Position numbers and translations under genes: made by a program. DNA of 33,117 bases from an uncultured Ruminococcus sp. (lineage in GTDB: Bacteria; Bacillota; Clostridia; RUG12999), in the NCBI GenBank assembly GCA_902784805.1, contig CACZWD010000021.1:1-33117 (forward strand), written 5' to 3'. The notes under the pieces are model-generated. The model searched no databases. It was not told where the DNA came from and was given only the letters and a program-made list of their open reading frames with translations. Positions 13,410 through 25,252 of the stretch are shown here, piece by piece. The stretch's first letter is position 1, and each line of letters starts with the position of its first letter.

Positions 13410-13438
13410 TTGAATTTTTTTTTGATATATGATACAAT
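13410..13438 (+). promoter_or_regulatory. Promoter of glmU
   Basis: TTGAAT (13410-13415) and TACAAT (13433-13438) are separated by 17 bases, about 50 bases before the ATG. It is divergent from the sigma operon promoter in the same 240-bp intergenic region. Confidence 0.7.
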
Positions 13439-13487
13439 AATAGTGGATATTGTAGTGTATGCAAAAAAATTTGAAAGAGGTAAAGCC

Positions 13488-14891
13488 ATGAGCAATATTT
13501 CGACTGTTATTCTGGCTGCCGGAGCAGGCACAAGAATGAAATCATCAAAAGCAAAGGTTGTACATAAAGTCTGCGGAAAACCAATGGTTAAGTGGGTTTA
13601 CTCCCAAGCGGAAAAAATAAATTCCGATAAAATTGTTACTGTTATAGGTCACGGGCGCGAGCAGGTTAAAGAGGTTCTCGGAGAAGATAAAATTTATGCT
13701 GTTCAGGAGCAGCAGCTCGGTACGGGACACGCGGTAATGGGCGCTCTTGAAAAAATTCCCGACGGCGGCATTGTTATTGTATTATGCGGCGACGCTCCTC
13801 TTATAACCGCCGAAACTTTAAAAGCGGCAACGGATTTCCATATAAAAAGCAGGTGCGCCGCAACCGTAATAACTGCGGATATAGATAATCCGACAGGCTA
13901 CGGAAGAATTTTACGTAACGAAAGCGGCAGTGTTCTCGGTATTGTTGAAGAAAAAGACGCAACCGACGAGCAAAGAAAAATAAAAGAAATTAATTCGGGT
14001 TCTTACTGTTTTGATACCGCCCTTTTACGCGCGGCTATTTCAAACCTAAAAAACGAAAACGCGGCGGGCGAGTATTATCTCACAGATACACTTGCGATAC
14101 TTCTTGAAAACGGCTATGAGGTCGGTGCTTTTAAAATTCCCGACATAACCGAGCTTATGGGTATTAACAATATGCTTCAGCTTTCGCAGGCGGAAAAAAT
14201 TATGCGTGAGCGCATAAACAAAGCTCATATGCTTGAAGGAGTAACTGTAATCTCCCCCGAAAATACATATATAGGAGCGGATGTTACAATCGGTACGGAT
14301 ACCGTAATTCTCCCGGGAAGCATAATCGGTGAAGGCTGCGTTATCGGAAACGGATGTATTATAGGTCCGAACGCTAACCTCAAAGAATGTGAAATCGGTG
14401 ACGGAAGTGAAATAAATTCCTCAACAATAGTAAAAAGCCGCATAGGTAAAAACGTCAATATGGGTCCTTACGCTTATGTCAGACCAAATTGCGTTATTGC
14501 CGATAATGTTAAAGTCGGTGATTTTGTCGAAGTAAAAAACTCCAATGTCGGCGAAGGTACAAAAATAGCTCATCTTACATATGTGGGCGACAGTGATGTG
14601 GGTTCCGGCGTAAATTTCGGATGCGGAACGGTAACGGTAAATTACGACAGTAAAAAGAAACACAGAACAACCATTAAAGACGGCGCGTTTATCGGCTGCA
14701 ACACAAACCTGAAGGCGCCTACACAGCCGCAGGTTCAACCATTACGGAGGACGTCCCGGGCGGCTCTCTCGCCATTGCGAGAAACCGTCAGACGGTCAAA
14801 GAAAAGTGGCGGGAAAGGAAATACGGCAAATAACCCTGGCAAAGCCCGGTTATTAAATATTTTAAGCTGCGGACGCCGGCATAATGGTTGA
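13488..14891 (+). CDS. glmU: Bifunctional GlmU with frameshifted C-terminus
   Basis: GlmU acetylates glucosamine-1-phosphate and transfers UMP to give UDP-GlcNAc, the precursor of peptidoglycan and teichoic acids. The N-terminal uridyltransferase is intact: [20 protein letters not shown], then [10 protein letters not shown] and [10 protein letters not shown]. The left-handed beta-helix acetyltransferase follows from ~250 ([57 protein letters not shown]). After NTNLKAP (base ~14711) the frame changes: the expected [20 protein letters not shown] ending is encoded in the next frame and would stop at TAA 14831-14833. The frame shown instead runs to 14891 with unrelated residues. An apparent 22-nt loss between two copies of GAAGGCGCCT explains this. 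ATG 13488 with GAAAGAGG upstream is the start; a longer frame from 13410 has no site. As the gene is essential, an assembly error or polymorphism is plausible. Confidence 0.88.
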
Positions 14892-17920: not shown

Positions 17921-19414
17921 ATGCTTGAAGCTGTGTTTTTTGATTTGGACGGAACCCTTACGGATTCCTATGAGGCAATTGTTACTTCTTTTGAATATGC
18001 GCTTAAAAAAAAGGGCATCTCCCCTATCGATGATGAAAATGTGCGGGAAAGCTATATCGGTCCCGCGCTTATTATTTCCTATATGAAATACTATGGTGTC
18101 AGCCGTTCCGAAGCGGAGGAGCTTGTGAAACTCTACCGTGAAGTATATCGTAAAGGAAATATGTTTCTCGTTAAAGTCTATAACAATGTTCCCGAAACTC
18201 TCAGACAGCTGAAAAAAAGCGGAATACGGCTCTTTGTCGTAACATCAAAGCCAAAGGAATTTGCCGATGCGATACTTAAAAAATTCAGCCTTTACGAATA
18301 TTTTGAAAAAATCCAGGCACCCGGCTTTAAAGACTGTGAAAAGAGTAAGAATGAGCTTATTACCGAACTTGCGAACGATTGCTGCCTTAATACCGAGAAT
18401 TGTCTTATGGTCGGCGATACAAAATACGATATTGAAGGCGGTTTAAAGGCAGGCGCAAAAACCGCGGGCGTAAAATACGGCTATCCCGGCAAAGGTGATT
18501 TTGATAACGCCGATTATATTATAGATGATATAAAGGAGATTTTAAAAATAGTGAATGAAGAAAACCATAAAATACGTGAAATAAGCTGCACGGCAGTTAC
18601 CGAAACCGTTGCGGAGCTTTGCAAAAACGCAAATTATTATCTTAATTCCGACATAAAATCCGCAATTGAAAAAAGTATAATACATGAGCAAGGCACGTCC
18701 GGACGAAATATTTTAAGAAAAATAAAACAAAACGCCGAACTTGCAGCTGAAAAAGAGGTCGCCATTTGTCAGGATACCGGTATGGCAATAATATTCGCCG
18801 AAATCGGTCAGGATACACATATATATGGCGGAAATCTTGAGGACGCTATAAATGAAGGCGTGAGAAAAGGCTATAAGGAAGGTTATATGCGCTGTTCTGT
18901 CGTTGCCGACCCGTTAAAACGAAAAAATACGGGCGATAATACGCCTGCTGTTATATATTATTCTGTTATTCCCGGAAACAAATTGAAACTCACCGTTATG
19001 CCTAAAGGCTTCGGAAGCGAAAATATGAGCGCCGTTAAAATGCTTAAACCCTCCGACGGCGAGGACGGTGTAAAGGATTTTATAGTTGAAACGGTTAAAA
19101 AAGCAGGTTCGAATCCCTGTCCTCCGATTACCGTAGGCGTCGGCATAGGCGGAAGTATGGATAAAGCTGCTCTGCTTTCAAAAAAAGCGCTTGCTAGAGG
19201 TATTGATACAGAAAATCCGGATAAATTTTACGCTTCAATGGAAAAAGAGCTTTTAGACCGCATAAACGCGCTCGGAATAGGTCCCGCAGGGCTTGGCGGC
19301 GTTACCACTGCTCTCGGTGTAAATATCGAAACCTACCCCACTCATATTGCCGGGCTTCCCGTTGCCGTGACAATAAGCTGCCACGTGACACGCCACGCAG
19401 AAAAAACAATTTAA
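17921..19414 (+). CDS. HAD-phosphatase / fumarate hydratase alpha fusion
   Basis: One uninterrupted 497-residue frame joins two enzymes. Residues 1-210 are a HAD-superfamily hydrolase of the phosphoglycolate-phosphatase type: [10 protein letters not shown] (D8, D10), a helical cap, VVTSKPKEF, and [19 protein letters not shown]. Residues ~217-497 are a class I (4Fe-4S) fumarate hydratase/tartrate dehydratase alpha chain: [11 protein letters not shown] (C283), [28 protein letters not shown] (C400), [20 protein letters not shown] and [13 protein letters not shown] (C487). These three cysteines are the expected cluster ligands. A GTG at codon 211 has AAGGAG twelve bases upstream, so the second enzyme may also be made separately. 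The beta subunit usually encoded next is not in the window; walR follows. A lost stop codon is an alternative to a working fusion. Confidence 0.85.
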
Positions 19415-19423
19415 AAATAATAC

Positions 19424-19452
19424 TTGTAAATTTTTAAAAAATCTGATATAAT
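19424..19452 (+). promoter_or_regulatory. Promoter of the walRK operon
   Basis: TTGTAA (19424-19429) and TATAAT (19447-19452) are separated by exactly 17 bases, with a leader of about 65 bases before walR. TGTAAA within the -35 region matches one half of a WalR box, but the second half is missing. Confidence 0.7.
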
Positions 19453-19523: not shown

Positions 19524-20243
19524 ATGAATAAAGGAAAATTAATTCTTGTTGTAGATGATGAAAAAAATATACTTGATATCATTGTTTTTAACCTTCAGAA
19601 TGAAGGATATGAAACAATAAGTGCAATGGACGGCGAAAAAGCAATCGAAATGCAGAAAAAATATAATCCGGATCTTATTCTGCTTGATGTAATGCTGCCC
19701 AAAACCGATGGCTTTACCGTTTGCAAAACTATAAGACAGTATTCAAATGTGCCTATTATTATGCTCACAGCAAGAGCTGACGAGGTTGATAAAATAATGG
19801 GGCTTGAGCTTGGTGCCGATGACTATATCACAAAACCTTTCAGTATGAAGGAGCTTTCCGCGCGAATCATGGCAAACACAAGGCGCATAGCTGCGCCGCA
19901 AGCGGAAAACAATGTTACGGCAGCGCCCCGTTCAAACATACTCACTTGTGGTGGCATAACCATAGACTGTGATAAATACGAAATATATCGCGGCGACAGA
20001 CTTCTGGATCTTACTTACAGAGAATATGAATTGCTTAAATTTATGGCAACACAGCCCGAAAAAGTCTTTACAAGGGAAATGCTGCTTGAAAAAGTCTGGG
20101 GCTTTGAATTTTACGGTGATGTACGTACTGTCGATGTAACAATACGCCGTTTAAGAGAAAAAATTGAAGAAGACCCTGGAAATCCCGCTTTTGTTATGAC
20201 AAAACGAGGTGTGGGATATTACTTTAACGATAAAAACAAATAA
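19524..20243 (+). CDS. walR: OmpR/PhoB-family response regulator, WalR-like
   Basis: A 239-residue two-component regulator. The receiver domain (1-120) has the acidic pair D11-D12 (VVDDEKN), the phospho-acceptor D55 (LLDVMLP), T83-region MLTAR and K-containing ITKPFSMKEL. The winged-helix output domain (~138-236) has EYELLKFMATQPEKVFTREM, then VWGFEFYGDVRTVDVTIRRL, and RGVGYYF at the end. In low-GC Firmicutes WalR controls peptidoglycan hydrolases and wall turnover. The WalR rather than PhoP reading rests on the downstream yycH and yycI homologues and on a WalR-type box. GAAAGGAGC precedes the ATG. Confidence 0.85.
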   Translation: MNKGKLILVVDDEKNILDIIVFNLQNEGYETISAMDGEKAIEMQKKYNPDLILLDVMLPKTDGFTVCKTIRQYSNVPIIMLTARADEVDKIMGLELGADDYITKPFSMKELSARIMANTRRIAAPQAENNVTAAPRSNILTCGGITIDCDKYEIYRGDRLLDLTYREYELLKFMATQPEKVFTREMLLEKVWGFEFYGDVRTVDVTIRRLREKIEEDPGNPAFVMTKRGVGYYFNDKNK

Positions 20244-20263: not shown

Positions 20264-22015
20264 ATGTTTAAAAGTATAAAATGGAAGCTTGTTTCTGTTC
20301 TTGTTCTTGTCGTTATAGCGCTTGTTATAATTGTCGGCACAGTTTTCAGAGTTTCCGTCTCAAACTTTTATATTGACGAATTTACTCGCTCAATGGATGC
20401 AGCTTTTGACGGTGAAATTGGCAGCAGGCTTGGTTCCGTCACTGAAACAGAAAAGCTTGACGAAATCCTTGACGCGTATTCTGTTCGTCTCGGTCTTGAT
20501 TCTTACAGGTATTGCTGCGTGTTTGACGGCAAAACCTGTGAGCTTCTTTATTCAAGTGACTATAATCCCGCAAAAAATATTGAAAAAACGCCTAATGTAA
20601 TCTCGGCTATGACAGGAAAGGTCGGCAAAGAAAACGGTTTTATGAAGTCCTATATGGATTATGCTTACCCCGTAATGCATGAAAGCGAAGTCGATTACAT
20701 TGTATATGTTTACGATTCCAAAATTGAAATAGGCGAAATATTAAACCGTATTTTGTTTACCATTCTTGAGGCACTGCTTATCGGCTTTGTTATTGCCCTT
20801 TTGCTCGGATATTTCTTGTCCGGTACAATAACAATGCCCATAATGAAGCTTACACGCAATGCCGAACGTTTTGCCGCGGGAGATTTTGAGAACAAAATTG
20901 ATGTCGGCTCTCATGACGAAATCGGTCAGCTTTCAGACACCTTTAATTATATGGCGCAGGAGCTTAAAACAAATATTTCCGCGTTAAGTGAAGAAAAAGA
21001 CAAACTTGAATCAATCCTCAGATATATGACAGACGGTGTAATGGCTTTTGATAAGGACGGAAATGTCCTTCATATTAACCGCGCCGCTTCCGAAATGCTT
21101 GGGATAAATGAAAACGCAAAAATAACTTTTGACAGTTTTTTTGGTCCGCTTGTTTCGGTTAGTGTTCAGGAAGTATATTTTAAAAACGGCGAAGCCGTAA
21201 GCCGTGATTATGAGTATGAAAACAAAAGTTTACAGTTTTTCTTCATTCTTACCGGCGCGCGTAAAAATCAGGATTATCAGTCAAACATTATTGTTGTTAT
21301 TCACGATATTACAGAGCTGCAAAAGCTTGAAATGAACCGCCGCGAATTTGTCGCGAATGTATCTCACGAGCTTAAAACACCTCTCACAACCATAAAAAGC
21401 TACGCCGAAACAATTCTCGGCGCTGAAAACCTACCCAAAGATACGGAAAATAATTTTCTTCAGGTAATTGTCGGCGAAGCGGACAGAATGAGCCGTCTTG
21501 TGTATGACCTTCTGCTTCTTTCAAAGCTCAATTACAACAGTCGTGAGCCCGAAAACGAAACTGTAGATTTAAAGGCTTTAATAAGCGATATTTTAAGACG
21601 TATGCACCTTGCTATGGAAGAAAAAAAGCAAACTCTTTCGTTAAGTATAAGCGAACCTTTGCCATACGTCAGCGGAAGCCGCGACAAGCTTGACCAGGTC
21701 TTTTTAAATATTTTTTCAAATGCTGTAAAATATACAGGTGACGAAGGTCATATAAGTGTGTTCGCAGGCGAAATGTACGGTTATGTTTTTGTTAAAATAC
21801 GCGATACAGGCATGGGCATACCAAAGGAAGATCTTCCCTATATTTTTGACAGATTTTACCGTGTGGATAAAGCCCGTTCAAGGGCGGCAGGCGGCACAGG
21901 GCTTGGGCTTGCCATCGCGAAAGAAATTGTGGAAGCCCACGGAGGAAAAATTTCCGTAACAAGCAAACTTGGCAAAGGTACCGAATTTACCGTAAATTTG
22001 CCCGTAAAAAAATAA
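20264..22015 (+). CDS. walK: Sensor histidine kinase, WalK-like
   Basis: A 583-residue membrane kinase partnered with the preceding regulator. Order: TM1 (~8-29), an extracytoplasmic sensor of ~130 residues with SRLGSVTETEKL and YSSDYNPAKN, TM2 (~165-186), HAMP (to ~240, PIMKLTRNAERFAAGDF), a PAS domain (~245-350, MTDGVMAFDKDGNVLHINRA), a dimerisation domain with the phospho-acceptor H368 in NVSHELKTPLTTIKS, and a complete ATPase domain with N box (DQVFLNIFSNAVKY), DTGMGIPKEDLPYIFDRFYR, and GGTGLGLAIAKEI. This architecture is that of WalK/VicK. It starts 20 bases after walR. It probably reports wall status and is likely tuned by the two membrane proteins encoded downstream. Confidence 0.9.
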   Translation: MFKSIKWKLVSVLVLVVIALVIIVGTVFRVSVSNFYIDEFTRSMDAAFDGEIGSRLGSVTETEKLDEILDAYSVRLGLDSYRYCCVFDGKTCELLYSSDYNPAKNIEKTPNVISAMTGKVGKENGFMKSYMDYAYPVMHESEVDYIVYVYDSKIEIGEILNRILFTILEALLIGFVIALLLGYFLSGTITMPIMKLTRNAERFAAGDFENKIDVGSHDEIGQLSDTFNYMAQELKTNISALSEEKDKLESILRYMTDGVMAFDKDGNVLHINRAASEMLGINENAKITFDSFFGPLVSVSVQEVYFKNGEAVSRDYEYENKSLQFFFILTGARKNQDYQSNIIVVIHDITELQKLEMNRREFVANVSHELKTPLTTIKSYAETILGAENLPKDTENNFLQVIVGEADRMSRLVYDLLLLSKLNYNSREPENETVDLKALISDILRRMHLAMEEKKQTLSLSISEPLPYVSGSRDKLDQVFLNIFSNAVKYTGDEGHISVFAGEMYGYVFVKIRDTGMGIPKEDLPYIFDRFYRVDKARSRAAGGTGLGLAIAKEIVEAHGGKISVTSKLGKGTEFTVNLPVKK

Positions 22016-22032
22016 TATAAAATTAACGTGAT

Positions 22033-22065
22033 TGTAACAGAATTGTAACATATATTTTGTATAAT
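22033..22065 (+). promoter_or_regulatory. WalR box and -10 element upstream of the small secreted gene
   Basis: TGTAAC (22033-22038), a five-base gap AGAAT, and TGTAAC again (22044-22049) match the published WalR/YycF consensus TGTWAH-N5-TGTWAH at every defined position. TATAAT follows at 22060-22065, ten bases after the box, and no consensus -35 hexamer is present at the right distance. The box thus sits where an activator would replace the -35 element, as at PhoB-type promoters. This points to a second promoter, under WalR control, for the three genes downstream of walK. Confidence 0.7.
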
Positions 22066-22121
22066 TATATTAAAGAAAATTAATTGTTTATACAGAAATT
22101 TAAAATTTCGGAGGAATTATT

Positions 22122-22577
22122 ATGAAACGTTTTTTAAAGGCTCTGCTTTGCCTGACAATTGCTTTCAGCTTTGTTATATCGTTTAACTGTTTCGCTGCTG
22201 ACCCCGGTATGGTCGGCAACAGCGTAATAAAAATAAAAAAGCCCGAAACATACACTTCTACAACAAGTCAAAAAGAGTATTACATATCGGGCGTTACGTC
22301 AAGCGGCGTTGTCGTGTCGGTATATCGCTATAACCCGTTCACCAACAGCTTTAATTTGCTTTATGTTGACGGCAAAGCAGCCGTTCAGACAGCAGGAGCA
22401 AGCGGTCTTATAGCACAGAAAATCTATCTTACCGACGGCAACAACAAAATCCGCATAAGGACCTATTCTCCCGATGGAACTGTTACAATTCTTGAAGTAA
22501 ATATTACTCTTAATGTTCTTTCGCTGAGTGATATTCAAAGTAGCCCGATTGACATCAGAAAAGCTATTGGCGCATAA
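22122..22577 (+). CDS. Small secreted beta-rich protein in the wal operon
   Basis: A 151-residue exported protein with an N-terminal signal peptide (MKRFLKALLCLTIAFSFVIS..., cleavage probably after the alanine-rich FAA near residue 26). The mature part of ~125 residues is predicted mainly strands (KEYYISGVTSSGVVVSVYRY; NKIRIRTYSPDGTVTILEVN), resembling one Ig-like or Bacterial Ig/CBM-type sandwich. GGAGGAAT precedes the ATG. It lies immediately downstream of the WalR box and two bases before the yycH homologue, an unusual insertion in the usual walRK-yycH-yycI order. It may be a WalR output or an extracytoplasmic partner of the sensor; function not established. Confidence 0.75.
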   Translation: MKRFLKALLCLTIAFSFVISFNCFAADPGMVGNSVIKIKKPETYTSTTSQKEYYISGVTSSGVVVSVYRYNPFTNSFNLLYVDGKAAVQTAGASGLIAQKIYLTDGNNKIRIRTYSPDGTVTILEVNITLNVLSLSDIQSSPIDIRKAIGA

Positions 22578-22579
22578 AA

Positions 22580-24019
22580 ATGAATAAAAGAACCGAACTT
22601 TTAAAAAGCACGCTGCTTGCCTTGCTTGTCGCAACAAGCGTTGTGCTTTTTGCAAATTCCTGGTCGGGAAGACCGGGCAGCGGTGAAAATGAAAATTTAA
22701 TAACACAGTTTGCATCGGCTGTTGGTTTGGGAGGCTTTTTAAATAATGAAATCAGTCTTACCAGCGGCACTGATGTAATTTCACCGGTATCAATAATATA
22801 TACTTCCGGTGCAAAGCGTATCATTTTTAATAAAGGGACAGATATGTATAATTCGGTTTACGGAAACATTCTGTCCGTTTTGTTATGCGCGGAAAATGTA
22901 ACTCATAACGAAAAGGTTCCTTCCTCAGAATGGTATTCCGCTCAAAAAACGCAGGGAATATATCTTAATTACGGCGTCAGCTTTAAACGTGGAGTTTTTG
23001 AGAAAGGTACCGGATGTCCTCTCCCTGAGGAAATTAAAAATGTAAGCGCGGTTATTCTCACTTCCAACGACAGCGCGACAAACAAACTTGTTATATATAT
23101 TTATGATTATACCGAAGGCGAATTTTATAAACTGTTAACCTCAGTCAGCGCAAGAACCGTCGAAAAACTTTTAAGCGATGCCGACGGATACACCAACATT
23201 CCGATAGCGGAAGAACTTGGTTTCAGTACTGATTCCGAAATAAACCGGCAAATTGTCATTGACGGCAATGCCGTTATAAACCTTGAACAGCAAAAATTAC
23301 AAAATATTTCATTTAAATCGGTGTCCGGAGGTTTTTCAGCACTTGATAACCGAAATGTAAATTTCCTTCTTTCTCTTTTTGACATGTCAAAAAGTTCGGC
23401 AAAACAATATGCGGATATCGACGGCACAATGTATATAGACACTTACGGAACATTGCGTTTTTCTGAAAAAGAAAGTGTATCCGTGCTTGAATTTAATGCC
23501 GCAAAGGAAACCCACGGAGTATCACTCGAAAACAATTCGCAGGGCGGTGAAATTTTTTACGATATTTTATACACGGGTTATTCAAAAGCGCGCGCGGTTT
23601 CGGAAATTTTTGAAACAGACAACTTATCTTTTTATATTGCTTCGAATATAACAACACCTGATGAAAACGGATATACCGTACAGCTTGATTATGTCTCGGA
23701 GGGCGTCCCTGTTTTTGCGACCGAAGAAGGTACCGAAACACACGCCGTTACTATGAAATTTAATTTAAGTGGTGAGCTTATTTATTACAGACAATATCTT
23801 TTTGAGCTGTCACCGGGTAACGGTTACAGCAACATCCCCGGCGTTCTGGATGCGATAAACCTTGTTTATTCCGCTATTGGAACAAACGAAGAACCTATCC
23901 ATATTAAGGATATTTCAGCCTGTTATAAATTAAACGAGGCAAAAGCCGAAGCGTGTCTTTGCGTAATTACCGGGAAAAACGACAAAATATACACCATACC
24001 CTCAAACAACACGGAATGA
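22580..24019 (+). CDS. yycH: YycH-like WalK regulatory membrane protein
   Basis: A 479-residue protein with one N-terminal TM helix (LLKSTLLALLVATSVVLFAN, residues ~7-26) and a large extracytoplasmic domain. Motifs recalling YycH include the SWSGRPG after the helix, a central acidic region, and a C-terminal PepSY-like unit (FNLSGELIYYRQYLFELSPG, ILDAINLVYSAIG) typical of two-component regulatory YycH proteins. In Bacillus YycH and YycI form a membrane complex with WalK and limit its activity; in Staphylococcus they activate. Here the direction of effect is unknown. ATG at 22580 lies two bases after the preceding stop with only a weak binding site (AGAAAAG), suggesting translational coupling. 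The family call uses position and topology as well as sequence. Confidence 0.7.
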   Translation: MNKRTELLKSTLLALLVATSVVLFANSWSGRPGSGENENLITQFASAVGLGGFLNNEISLTSGTDVISPVSIIYTSGAKRIIFNKGTDMYNSVYGNILSVLLCAENVTHNEKVPSSEWYSAQKTQGIYLNYGVSFKRGVFEKGTGCPLPEEIKNVSAVILTSNDSATNKLVIYIYDYTEGEFYKLLTSVSARTVEKLLSDADGYTNIPIAEELGFSTDSEINRQIVIDGNAVINLEQQKLQNISFKSVSGGFSALDNRNVNFLLSLFDMSKSSAKQYADIDGTMYIDTYGTLRFSEKESVSVLEFNAAKETHGVSLENNSQGGEIFYDILYTGYSKARAVSEIFETDNLSFYIASNITTPDENGYTVQLDYVSEGVPVFATEEGTETHAVTMKFNLSGELIYYRQYLFELSPGNGYSNIPGVLDAINLVYSAIGTNEEPIHIKDISACYKLNEAKAEACLCVITGKNDKIYTIPSNNTE

Positions 24020-24048: not shown

Positions 24049-24891
24049 ATGTCCTGGTCAAAAATTAAAACTATACTGATTTTTCTTTTTGTTTTTGTCA
24101 ATATCTTTTTGCTATATAATATGTTTTTTAAGACAGGTTTGGGTAATGAGGTATCTCAACAGACAGTAAATGAAACCGTATCTGTATTGCGGAAAGCTGG
24201 TATCGCAATAAATCCGGATATAATAAGCCGCAAAACGCTTTATATGAAAAAACCCGAAATTTCAAATTCTATCGATAACAGACAGGTCCTTGCGGAAAAT
24301 CTTATAGGAAAAGCAAAATCTTTTGAAAACGTTTACGAAAACGAAAAAGGTAAAATTACATTTAATGCTGTTGTATTCAACTTTGAGAACCACGATAAAA
24401 CCGTGAAGATTTCGGATATAAGTGAAAACAACGCTATTGATCGCGCTTCAAAATATCTGAACAGCTGCGGTTTTGACGTTCAGACCGACGCTGTAAGAGA
24501 TTTTACATCGGGCGAAAACGGCTATTATATAAAGTTTGGAAAAGAAATAGACGGTTACCCACTGTACGAAAGCTATCTTGATATATACATTATGCCTGAC
24601 GGTATGCTTAATGAAATAAACGGTTATTGGCCGGAGGTTTACGGGCAATCGGCAGGCGGCACCGAAACAATATGTGTTGATACTACAAAAGTTTTGATAA
24701 ATCTTCTTTCTGTGGAAGGAATTACAAAAAACGAAATCGTTGATATTCAGACCGGCTACACTCTCGGCGGTCTGCCAGAAAACGACAGTCCTATCCTGCT
24801 CACACTGCTTCCGGCATACAGAATAATATTAAAAACCGGCGAAAACTATATATTTGACGCGACAAACGGGGAATTTTTGTACAAATATTAA
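24049..24891 (+). CDS. yycI: YycI-like WalK regulatory membrane protein
   Basis: A 280-residue protein with the hallmark N-terminus MSWSKIKTILIFLFVFVNIF (compare the MDWSK-x-KTIFI start of YycI), one TM helix at ~7-26, and an extracytoplasmic region with YycI-like repeats: FENVYENEKGKITFNAVVF, KYLNSCGFD, ENGYYIKFGKEIDGYPLYES, YLDIYIMPDGMLNEINGYWP and a final YIFDATNGEFLYKY strand. It follows yycH by 29 bases with AAGGAGGAG as binding site. It is the last gene of the operon; no yycJ-type hydrolase follows. The call is firm because the N-terminal signature is distinctive. Confidence 0.8.
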   Translation: MSWSKIKTILIFLFVFVNIFLLYNMFFKTGLGNEVSQQTVNETVSVLRKAGIAINPDIISRKTLYMKKPEISNSIDNRQVLAENLIGKAKSFENVYENEKGKITFNAVVFNFENHDKTVKISDISENNAIDRASKYLNSCGFDVQTDAVRDFTSGENGYYIKFGKEIDGYPLYESYLDIYIMPDGMLNEINGYWPEVYGQSAGGTETICVDTTKVLINLLSVEGITKNEIVDIQTGYTLGGLPENDSPILLTLLPAYRIILKTGENYIFDATNGEFLYKY

Positions 24892-24917: not shown

Positions 24918-24946
24918 TTGACAAATGAAAAAAAGTGTTGTATAAT
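24918..24946 (+). promoter_or_regulatory. Promoter of the trpB transcript
   Basis: TTGACA (24918-24923), a 17-base spacer (24924-24940) and TATAAT (24941-24946): a perfect consensus promoter just before the T-box leader. Confidence 0.85.
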
Positions 24947-24970
24947 TATCCTAAATTAAATATTCCAAAC

Positions 24971-25219
24971 CGTTGAGGCAGAGAAAAATCGGAAGAAATC
25001 TTTTAAAGCGAGTGAATGACGGTGAGAGTTTCACAAAGGTTACCGAGTAATATGGCCTGCCGAGGGCGGCGTTAAATGCGCCGACGTAGGACTTGCGTTA
25101 TAAGTCGGAGATATGCTGGTATCTCGCTGAGGAGCTGTCAAAGGCTCAAAACAAGGTGGCACCACGGAAAAGTTTTTTCGTCCTTGATTTGCATATTTAT
25201 GCATATCAGGGACTTTTTT
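24971..25219 (+). promoter_or_regulatory. T-box riboswitch, tryptophan-specific
   Basis: The conserved T-box AAGGTGGCACCACGG is at 25153-25167. Upstream, Stem I is closed by GGCAG (24977-24981) and CTGCC (25057-25061), with the purine-rich AGAGAAAAA on the 5' side and AGCGAGTGAATGACGGTGAG (the AG-bulge and GGTGAG element) in the distal part. A TGG triplet (25053-25055) sits in the specifier position just before the closing helix, which specifies tRNA-Trp. The terminator is GTCCTTGAT... / ...ATCAGGGAC (25180-25213) followed by six T (25214-25219). Uncharged tRNA-Trp should stabilise the antiterminator and let trpB be transcribed. Exact helix borders were judged by eye. Confidence 0.93.
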
Positions 25220-25252
25220 ATTTAAATAATTATTATGAAAGGAGACTTTAAA

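Follow-up and report, generated by a model that had tools for sequence, protein, structure and literature searches.

Organization of the locus

The window, a 33,117-nucleotide stretch of contig CACZWD010000021.1 (positions 1 to 33,117, forward strand) from the assembly of an uncultured Ruminococcus sp., carries the genes of a WalR-type response regulator and a WalK-type histidine kinase, followed by genes for a small secreted protein, a YycH homologue and a YycI homologue. A total of 106 bases separate the stop of the kinase gene (20264-22015) from the start of the secreted-protein gene (22122-22577), and a WalR-type box, TGTAACAGAATTGTAAC (window 22033-22049), lies within this interval. The sequence reads TGTAAC (22033-22038), AGAAT and TGTAAC (22044-22049), then a spacer of 10 bases and TATAAT (22060-22065), as an earlier note on this DNA had described. 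On the 3' side, GGAGG (22110-22114) precedes the ATG at 22122. No yycJ-type gene follows yycI in this window. The features are as follows.

19424-19452, + strand: probable walR promoter, TTGTAA-17-TATAAT with TG; no paired WalR box
19524-20243, + strand: WalR-type response regulator, recognition helix GDVRTVDVTIRRLREKIE
20264-22015, + strand: WalK-type histidine kinase with HAMP, PAS, HisKA and HATPase domains
22011-22016, + strand: fourth (outermost) half-site position, AATAAT, degenerate (consensus TGTWA in relatives), overlapping the walK stop codon
22022-22027, + strand: third half-site, ATTAAC (consensus YTTAAW)
22033-22038, + strand: second half-site, TGTAAC, of the WalR-type box
22044-22049, + strand: promoter-proximal half-site, TGTAAC, of the WalR-type box, ending 10 bp before the -10 element
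22060-22065, + strand: -10 element, TATAAT (TATAAT or TATACT at N10/N11 in relatives found without the pattern)
22071-22074, + strand: expected transcription start, placed from the position of the -10 element
22110-22114, + strand: ribosome-binding site, GGAGG, read from the sequence
22122-22577, + strand: small secreted protein, 151 aa, with an N-terminal signal sequence and one Ig/FN3-like beta-sandwich
22580-24019, + strand: YycH (WalH) homologue, identified from its fold only, starting 2 bases after the secreted-protein gene
24049-24891, + strand: YycI (WalI) homologue, recognised via relatives and position, starting 29 bases after yycH

The box stands in place of a -35 element, as had been proposed: at a 17-bp spacer before the TATAAT at 22060 the window reads ACAGAA, which is no recognisable -35. 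The earlier note had drawn the box as two TGTAAC half-sites; both are present, but two further upstream positions (22022 and 22011) had been missed. The full element is an array of four half-sites at 11-bp spacing (TGTWA, KTAA, TGTAAY, TGTAAY), followed by N10/11 and TATAAT. Two of the half-sites in the window are perfect, one is good and one is degenerate, the TKTWA motif that is common at the matching offset in relatives not being matched at 22011-22016. A second candidate promoter, TTGTAA-17-TATATT at 22043-22071, is weaker, but relatives keep the -10 element of the 22060 type.

Specificity of the box and of the box with its -10 element

Apart from the near-palindromic complement of the same box, TGTWAH-N5-TGTWAH occurs nowhere else in the window, and shuffled sequences give a mean of 0.28 matches per window. 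The scan of this genome suggested by the earlier note revealed no enrichment of the pattern (26 sites versus 23 in the reversed control). The 17-bp match, although it fits the published consensus exactly, is therefore weak evidence by itself and not significant. A regulon defined by the loose consensus in this genome was dropped, as the majority of the matches examined fell inside ORFs and there was no enrichment. The box plus its -10 element, by comparison, is strong evidence. TGTAAY-N5-TGTAAY-N10/11-TATAAT is found once in this genome, where a first-order model predicts ∼1.4 TGTAAY pairs per genome and ∼0.001 with the -10 element required at N10. A scan of 61 genomes returned 17 sites and none in the reversed control; across 391 Clostridia genomes there were 102 sites in 99 genomes, as compared to 1 in the reversed control and ∼1.2 expected.

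On another contig of this genome (C23, 41810-41922), two intergenic TGTAAT-N5-TGTAAT pairs (L018 and L019) lie 96 bp apart in front of a SpoIVB-like gene, with no -10 element at the expected spacing.

Conservation of the element with a secreted-protein/YycH module

We retrieved and read the surroundings of all 102 strict sites. Eighty-eight of them lie directly before a module that encodes a secreted Ig-like protein of ∼150 aa, YycH and usually YycI. The walK gene is just upstream in 67 of these 88 and is not found there in the other 21: five lie near contig ends where the upstream gene cannot be read, one has a kinase gene 555 bp upstream, and 15 are preceded by other genes, among them rlmB-like, soj/parA-like, uppP-like and yfcE-like genes (named by sequence reading). 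Since these 15 modules are found behind other genes, the box goes with the secreted-protein module and not with the wal operon. The walK genes of 60 relatives present the same picture. Box and -10 element are found wherever the small secreted-protein gene comes next, and the box is missing where yycH follows directly (L048, L053) or where a YycI-like gene (L045) or unrelated genes come next.

In a test independent of the pattern, a profile of the secreted protein was searched in the 60 relatives and was positive in 24 genomes; L227, one further weak partial match, was set aside. Twenty-two of the 24 secreted-protein genes scored 17-18 of 18 for the box plus -10 element, so that the upstream conservation on which the earlier note had staked its proposal is observed. 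One of the remaining two scored 15, and the other has no box, probably because the upstream sequence is absent. Among the 88 module sites, half-sites outside the search pattern are also conserved in register: NKTAA occurs at -11 in 98% and TKTWA at -22 in 77%, as compared to about 0-7% at unrelated offsets (∼1% at most others for TKTWA). Box and -10 element are separated by 10 bp at 74 of these sites and by 11 bp at the other 14. In the logos of the 88 module sites, and of a first set of sites, no -35 hexamer is conserved at the distance that one would require.

The gene order walR-walK-box-secreted protein-yycH-yycI-murA is found in Acetivibrio, Ruminiclostridium papyrosolvens and related contigs, with a metallo-beta-lactamase gene of the YycJ type after murA where the contig extends far enough. 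A complete wal operon, with yycH, yycI and the metallo-beta-lactamase gene yycJ after walRK, is present in A. alkalicellulosi (L112), where Pfam identifies the lactamase domain, and in a Clostridia MAG (L115), where the genes were identified by reading. A contig search with a narrower secreted-protein alignment reached only the Acetivibrio/Ruminiclostridium side, and the broad secreted-protein alignment held no stretch conserved enough for such a search.

Fourteen of the 102 strict sites lie outside the module, the majority before envelope genes. Their targets include three NlpC/P60 proteins, an AMIN/Amidase_3 amidase, a copper-amine-oxidase-N protein, an SLH protein and MurA. These sites belong to the genomes of relatives, the strict pattern occurring only once in this one. 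Envelope genes of this type are under WalR control elsewhere (PMC7299342). None of the 102 sites in the 391 Clostridia genomes lies before a recognised phosphate (pst/pho) gene.

The regulator, the kinase and the module proteins

The recognition helix of the window regulator, GDVRTVDVTIRRLREKIE, is identical to that of Staphylococcus aureus WalR (2zxj) and one residue off that of Bacillus subtilis WalR. Together with the envelope genes behind other boxes, it supports WalR as the predicted regulator, as the earlier note had it. The best NCBIfam model for the regulator is YycF (309.8 bits, with PhoB at 232.2); since this score is below the YycF cut-off of 340, we refer to the protein as WalR-type and not as a curated YycF member. 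The kinase is likewise called WalK-type: WalK is its best NCBIfam model at 465.9 bits, under the cut-off of 725, with PnpS at 372.8 bits and the PhoR model also scoring well. Within this assembly, the window regulator shares this helix with a 92% identical copy on contig C48, and the three other OmpR-type regulators found do not carry it. The contig C48 copy (L080, 1644-5552) comprises a second HAD/fumarase, walR and walK region at ∼76% nucleotide identity that ends inside walK, and probably represents a contig of a sister species in the bin. Ahead of walR, window 17921-19414 holds one 497-residue ORF in which a HAD phosphatase (residues 5-184) and a fumarase domain (227-494) are fused, and a fused ORF of equal length is present on contig C48.

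In L048 and L053, the two loci in which yycH directly follows walK with neither secreted-protein gene nor box, WalR has a different recognition helix (GDKRTVDVTVARIREKIE). Regulator and site may have changed together in these loci. L039, L041 and L045, for example, encode WalR with the same helix as in the window, yet have no box behind walK.

The secreted protein matched no Pfam or NCBIfam family. Its predicted structure (pLDDT 78, core above 90) has an Ig/FN3-like beta-sandwich after the signal sequence, and a fold search returned many Ig/FN3-like domains, including a glucodextranase domain (Z 11.1) and CbhA modules (Z ∼9); the matches of this model give no hint of function. The small secreted product had been called correctly from the sequence, and the yycH/yycI call stands, for yycH by fold and for yycI by way of relatives. 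No Pfam or NCBIfam model matches the protein in the YycH position by sequence, but its structural model aligns with B. subtilis YycH (2fgt, E = 5.1e-15) and with the YycH chain of a WalK-YycH model (9a5d_B, E = 7.8e-18). Profiles from alignments of YycH-like and of YycI-like proteins had only spurious matches in the PDB, so the assignment of YycH was settled by fold, and we describe the protein as having the fold and the gene position of YycH. Pfam YycI (PF09648) does not match the window protein itself and does match 5 of 10 aligned homologues, the best at 1.6e-36.

A predicted WalR-activated promoter between walK and the module

Promoters activated by PhoB/PhoP have no -35 and instead carry direct repeats of 11 bp, all on the same helix face, that end ∼10 bp before the -10 element. 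We propose that 22011-22065 is an internal promoter of the wal operon that depends on WalR~P acting in the manner of PhoB and that feeds back on the modulators of WalRK, a reading we hold to be likely. The conservation, architecture and module specificity of the element, the WalR-type helix, and the identity of the module by fold and family are observed; occupancy by WalR, activation, and the start site are predictions. Phosphorylated WalR would bind head-to-tail to half-sites 11 bp apart on a single helix face; the array, ending ten bases before the -10 element, would stand in for the -35, and WalR would bring in RNA polymerase in the way known for PhoB at pho boxes. The resulting transcript would encode the secreted Ig-like protein together with YycH and YycI, which are membrane partners of WalK. 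How much of its accessory proteins is made would then depend on the activity of WalRK, in a loop independent of the upstream walRK promoter. The element is best read as controlling the accessory genes and not walRK itself. The loop here could be negative or positive, since YycH and YycI act on WalK as inhibitors in B. subtilis (PMC7299342) and as activators in S. aureus (PMC7355866, PMC8774646).

A role for the secreted protein in this loop is a more tentative suggestion. The Ig-like protein might be a WalR-controlled exported feedback ligand of WalK/YycHI that reports to or tunes the kinase and closes the WalRK loop in Clostridia, its gene set moving around genomes with its own four-half-site promoter, though we think this somewhat improbable. 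An analogy is the Cpx system, in which CpxP provides feedback as a regulated exported partner. There, as proposed here, the gene of a small exported protein under control of the regulator adjoins a two-component system; the clostridial protein has no homology to CpxP.

It is unlikely that WalR instead represses this promoter, with the proximal half-site blocking RNA polymerase at a WalR-independent promoter and the accessory genes off when WalRK is active. WalR sites between the -35 and -10 elements go with repression in S. aureus (PMC10746227), and here the proximal half-site occupies just that interval, with no recognisable -35; the TTGTAA-17-TATATT alternative is a further point in favour. 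The site logos, lacking a conserved -35 hexamer, leave a WalR-independent promoter without evident trace, and the array extends to about -61, like those of activators of the same regulator family.

Still less probable is that the array is a pho box for a PhoB/PhoP-type regulator and that the module answers phosphate limitation. Its tandem 11-bp repeats, 10-11 bp before a -10 element without a -35, are the PhoB/PhoP arrangement, pho boxes also having up to four half-sites, and the kinase scores well with the PnpS and PhoR models. The half-site sequence and the regulator are WalR-type, in difference from pho boxes, the regulator by its helix and by its YycF score exceeding that for PhoB; the strict sites outside the module mostly precede envelope genes, and none precedes a recognisable pst or pho gene. 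No phoU gene is seen in this assembly, which is 84% complete: its single PhoU match lies within a 595-residue frame that is probably a Na/Pi cotransporter. That a loose, AT-rich consensus was matched by chance and has no function, as the absence of enrichment in this genome might suggest, can be set aside given the 102 sites versus 1 in the control, the 22 of 24 homologues found without the pattern and the extra half-sites in register.

Comparison with known wal operons

The locus resembles WalRK (YycFG) with WalH and WalI of Bacilli in the order walR-walK-yycH-yycI, in the recognition helix, in TGTWAH-N5-TGTWAH and in the envelope genes behind other boxes (here in relatives). What sets it apart is that walK and yycH are separated by an additional gene, that of the secreted protein, and by a promoter with a WalR box. 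The S. aureus walRKHI operon has its promoters upstream of walR (PMC4801191) and is apparently not autoregulated according to the text of PMC8774646, a table of which marks it 'auto'. The Clostridioides difficile operon walA-walR-walK-truA2 is likewise clostridial and encodes an exported accessory protein, a predicted beta-propeller lipoprotein whose gene, walA, is upstream of walR; it lacks the secreted-protein/YycH module, no internal WalR-boxed module is described for it, and it is reported not to be autoregulated (PMC9210968). A partial literature search returned no description of the clostridial secreted protein or of a WalR box before yycHI.

Most species in which WalRK has been investigated cannot do without it, and the system has been considered as a target for antibiotics. 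Published work describes wal operons as lacking autoregulation, and a conserved WalR-type promoter before the kinase modulators would alter this picture for many Clostridia. With one strict site per genome in most carriers, the promoter would serve as a clean native reporter of WalR activity, and it would point to the uncharacterised secreted protein as part of the sensing machinery.

Other features of the window

Downstream of yycI, window 24918-25188 holds a perfect TTGACA-17-TATAAT promoter and then a T-box leader (RF00230, 77.6 bits, E = 2.6e-17, under the gathering score of 93), before a TrpB-like PLP-enzyme gene at 25235. At 13410-14891, a GlmU-like ORF ends in what looks like an out-of-frame tail, which points to a frameshift or a sequencing error near 14740.
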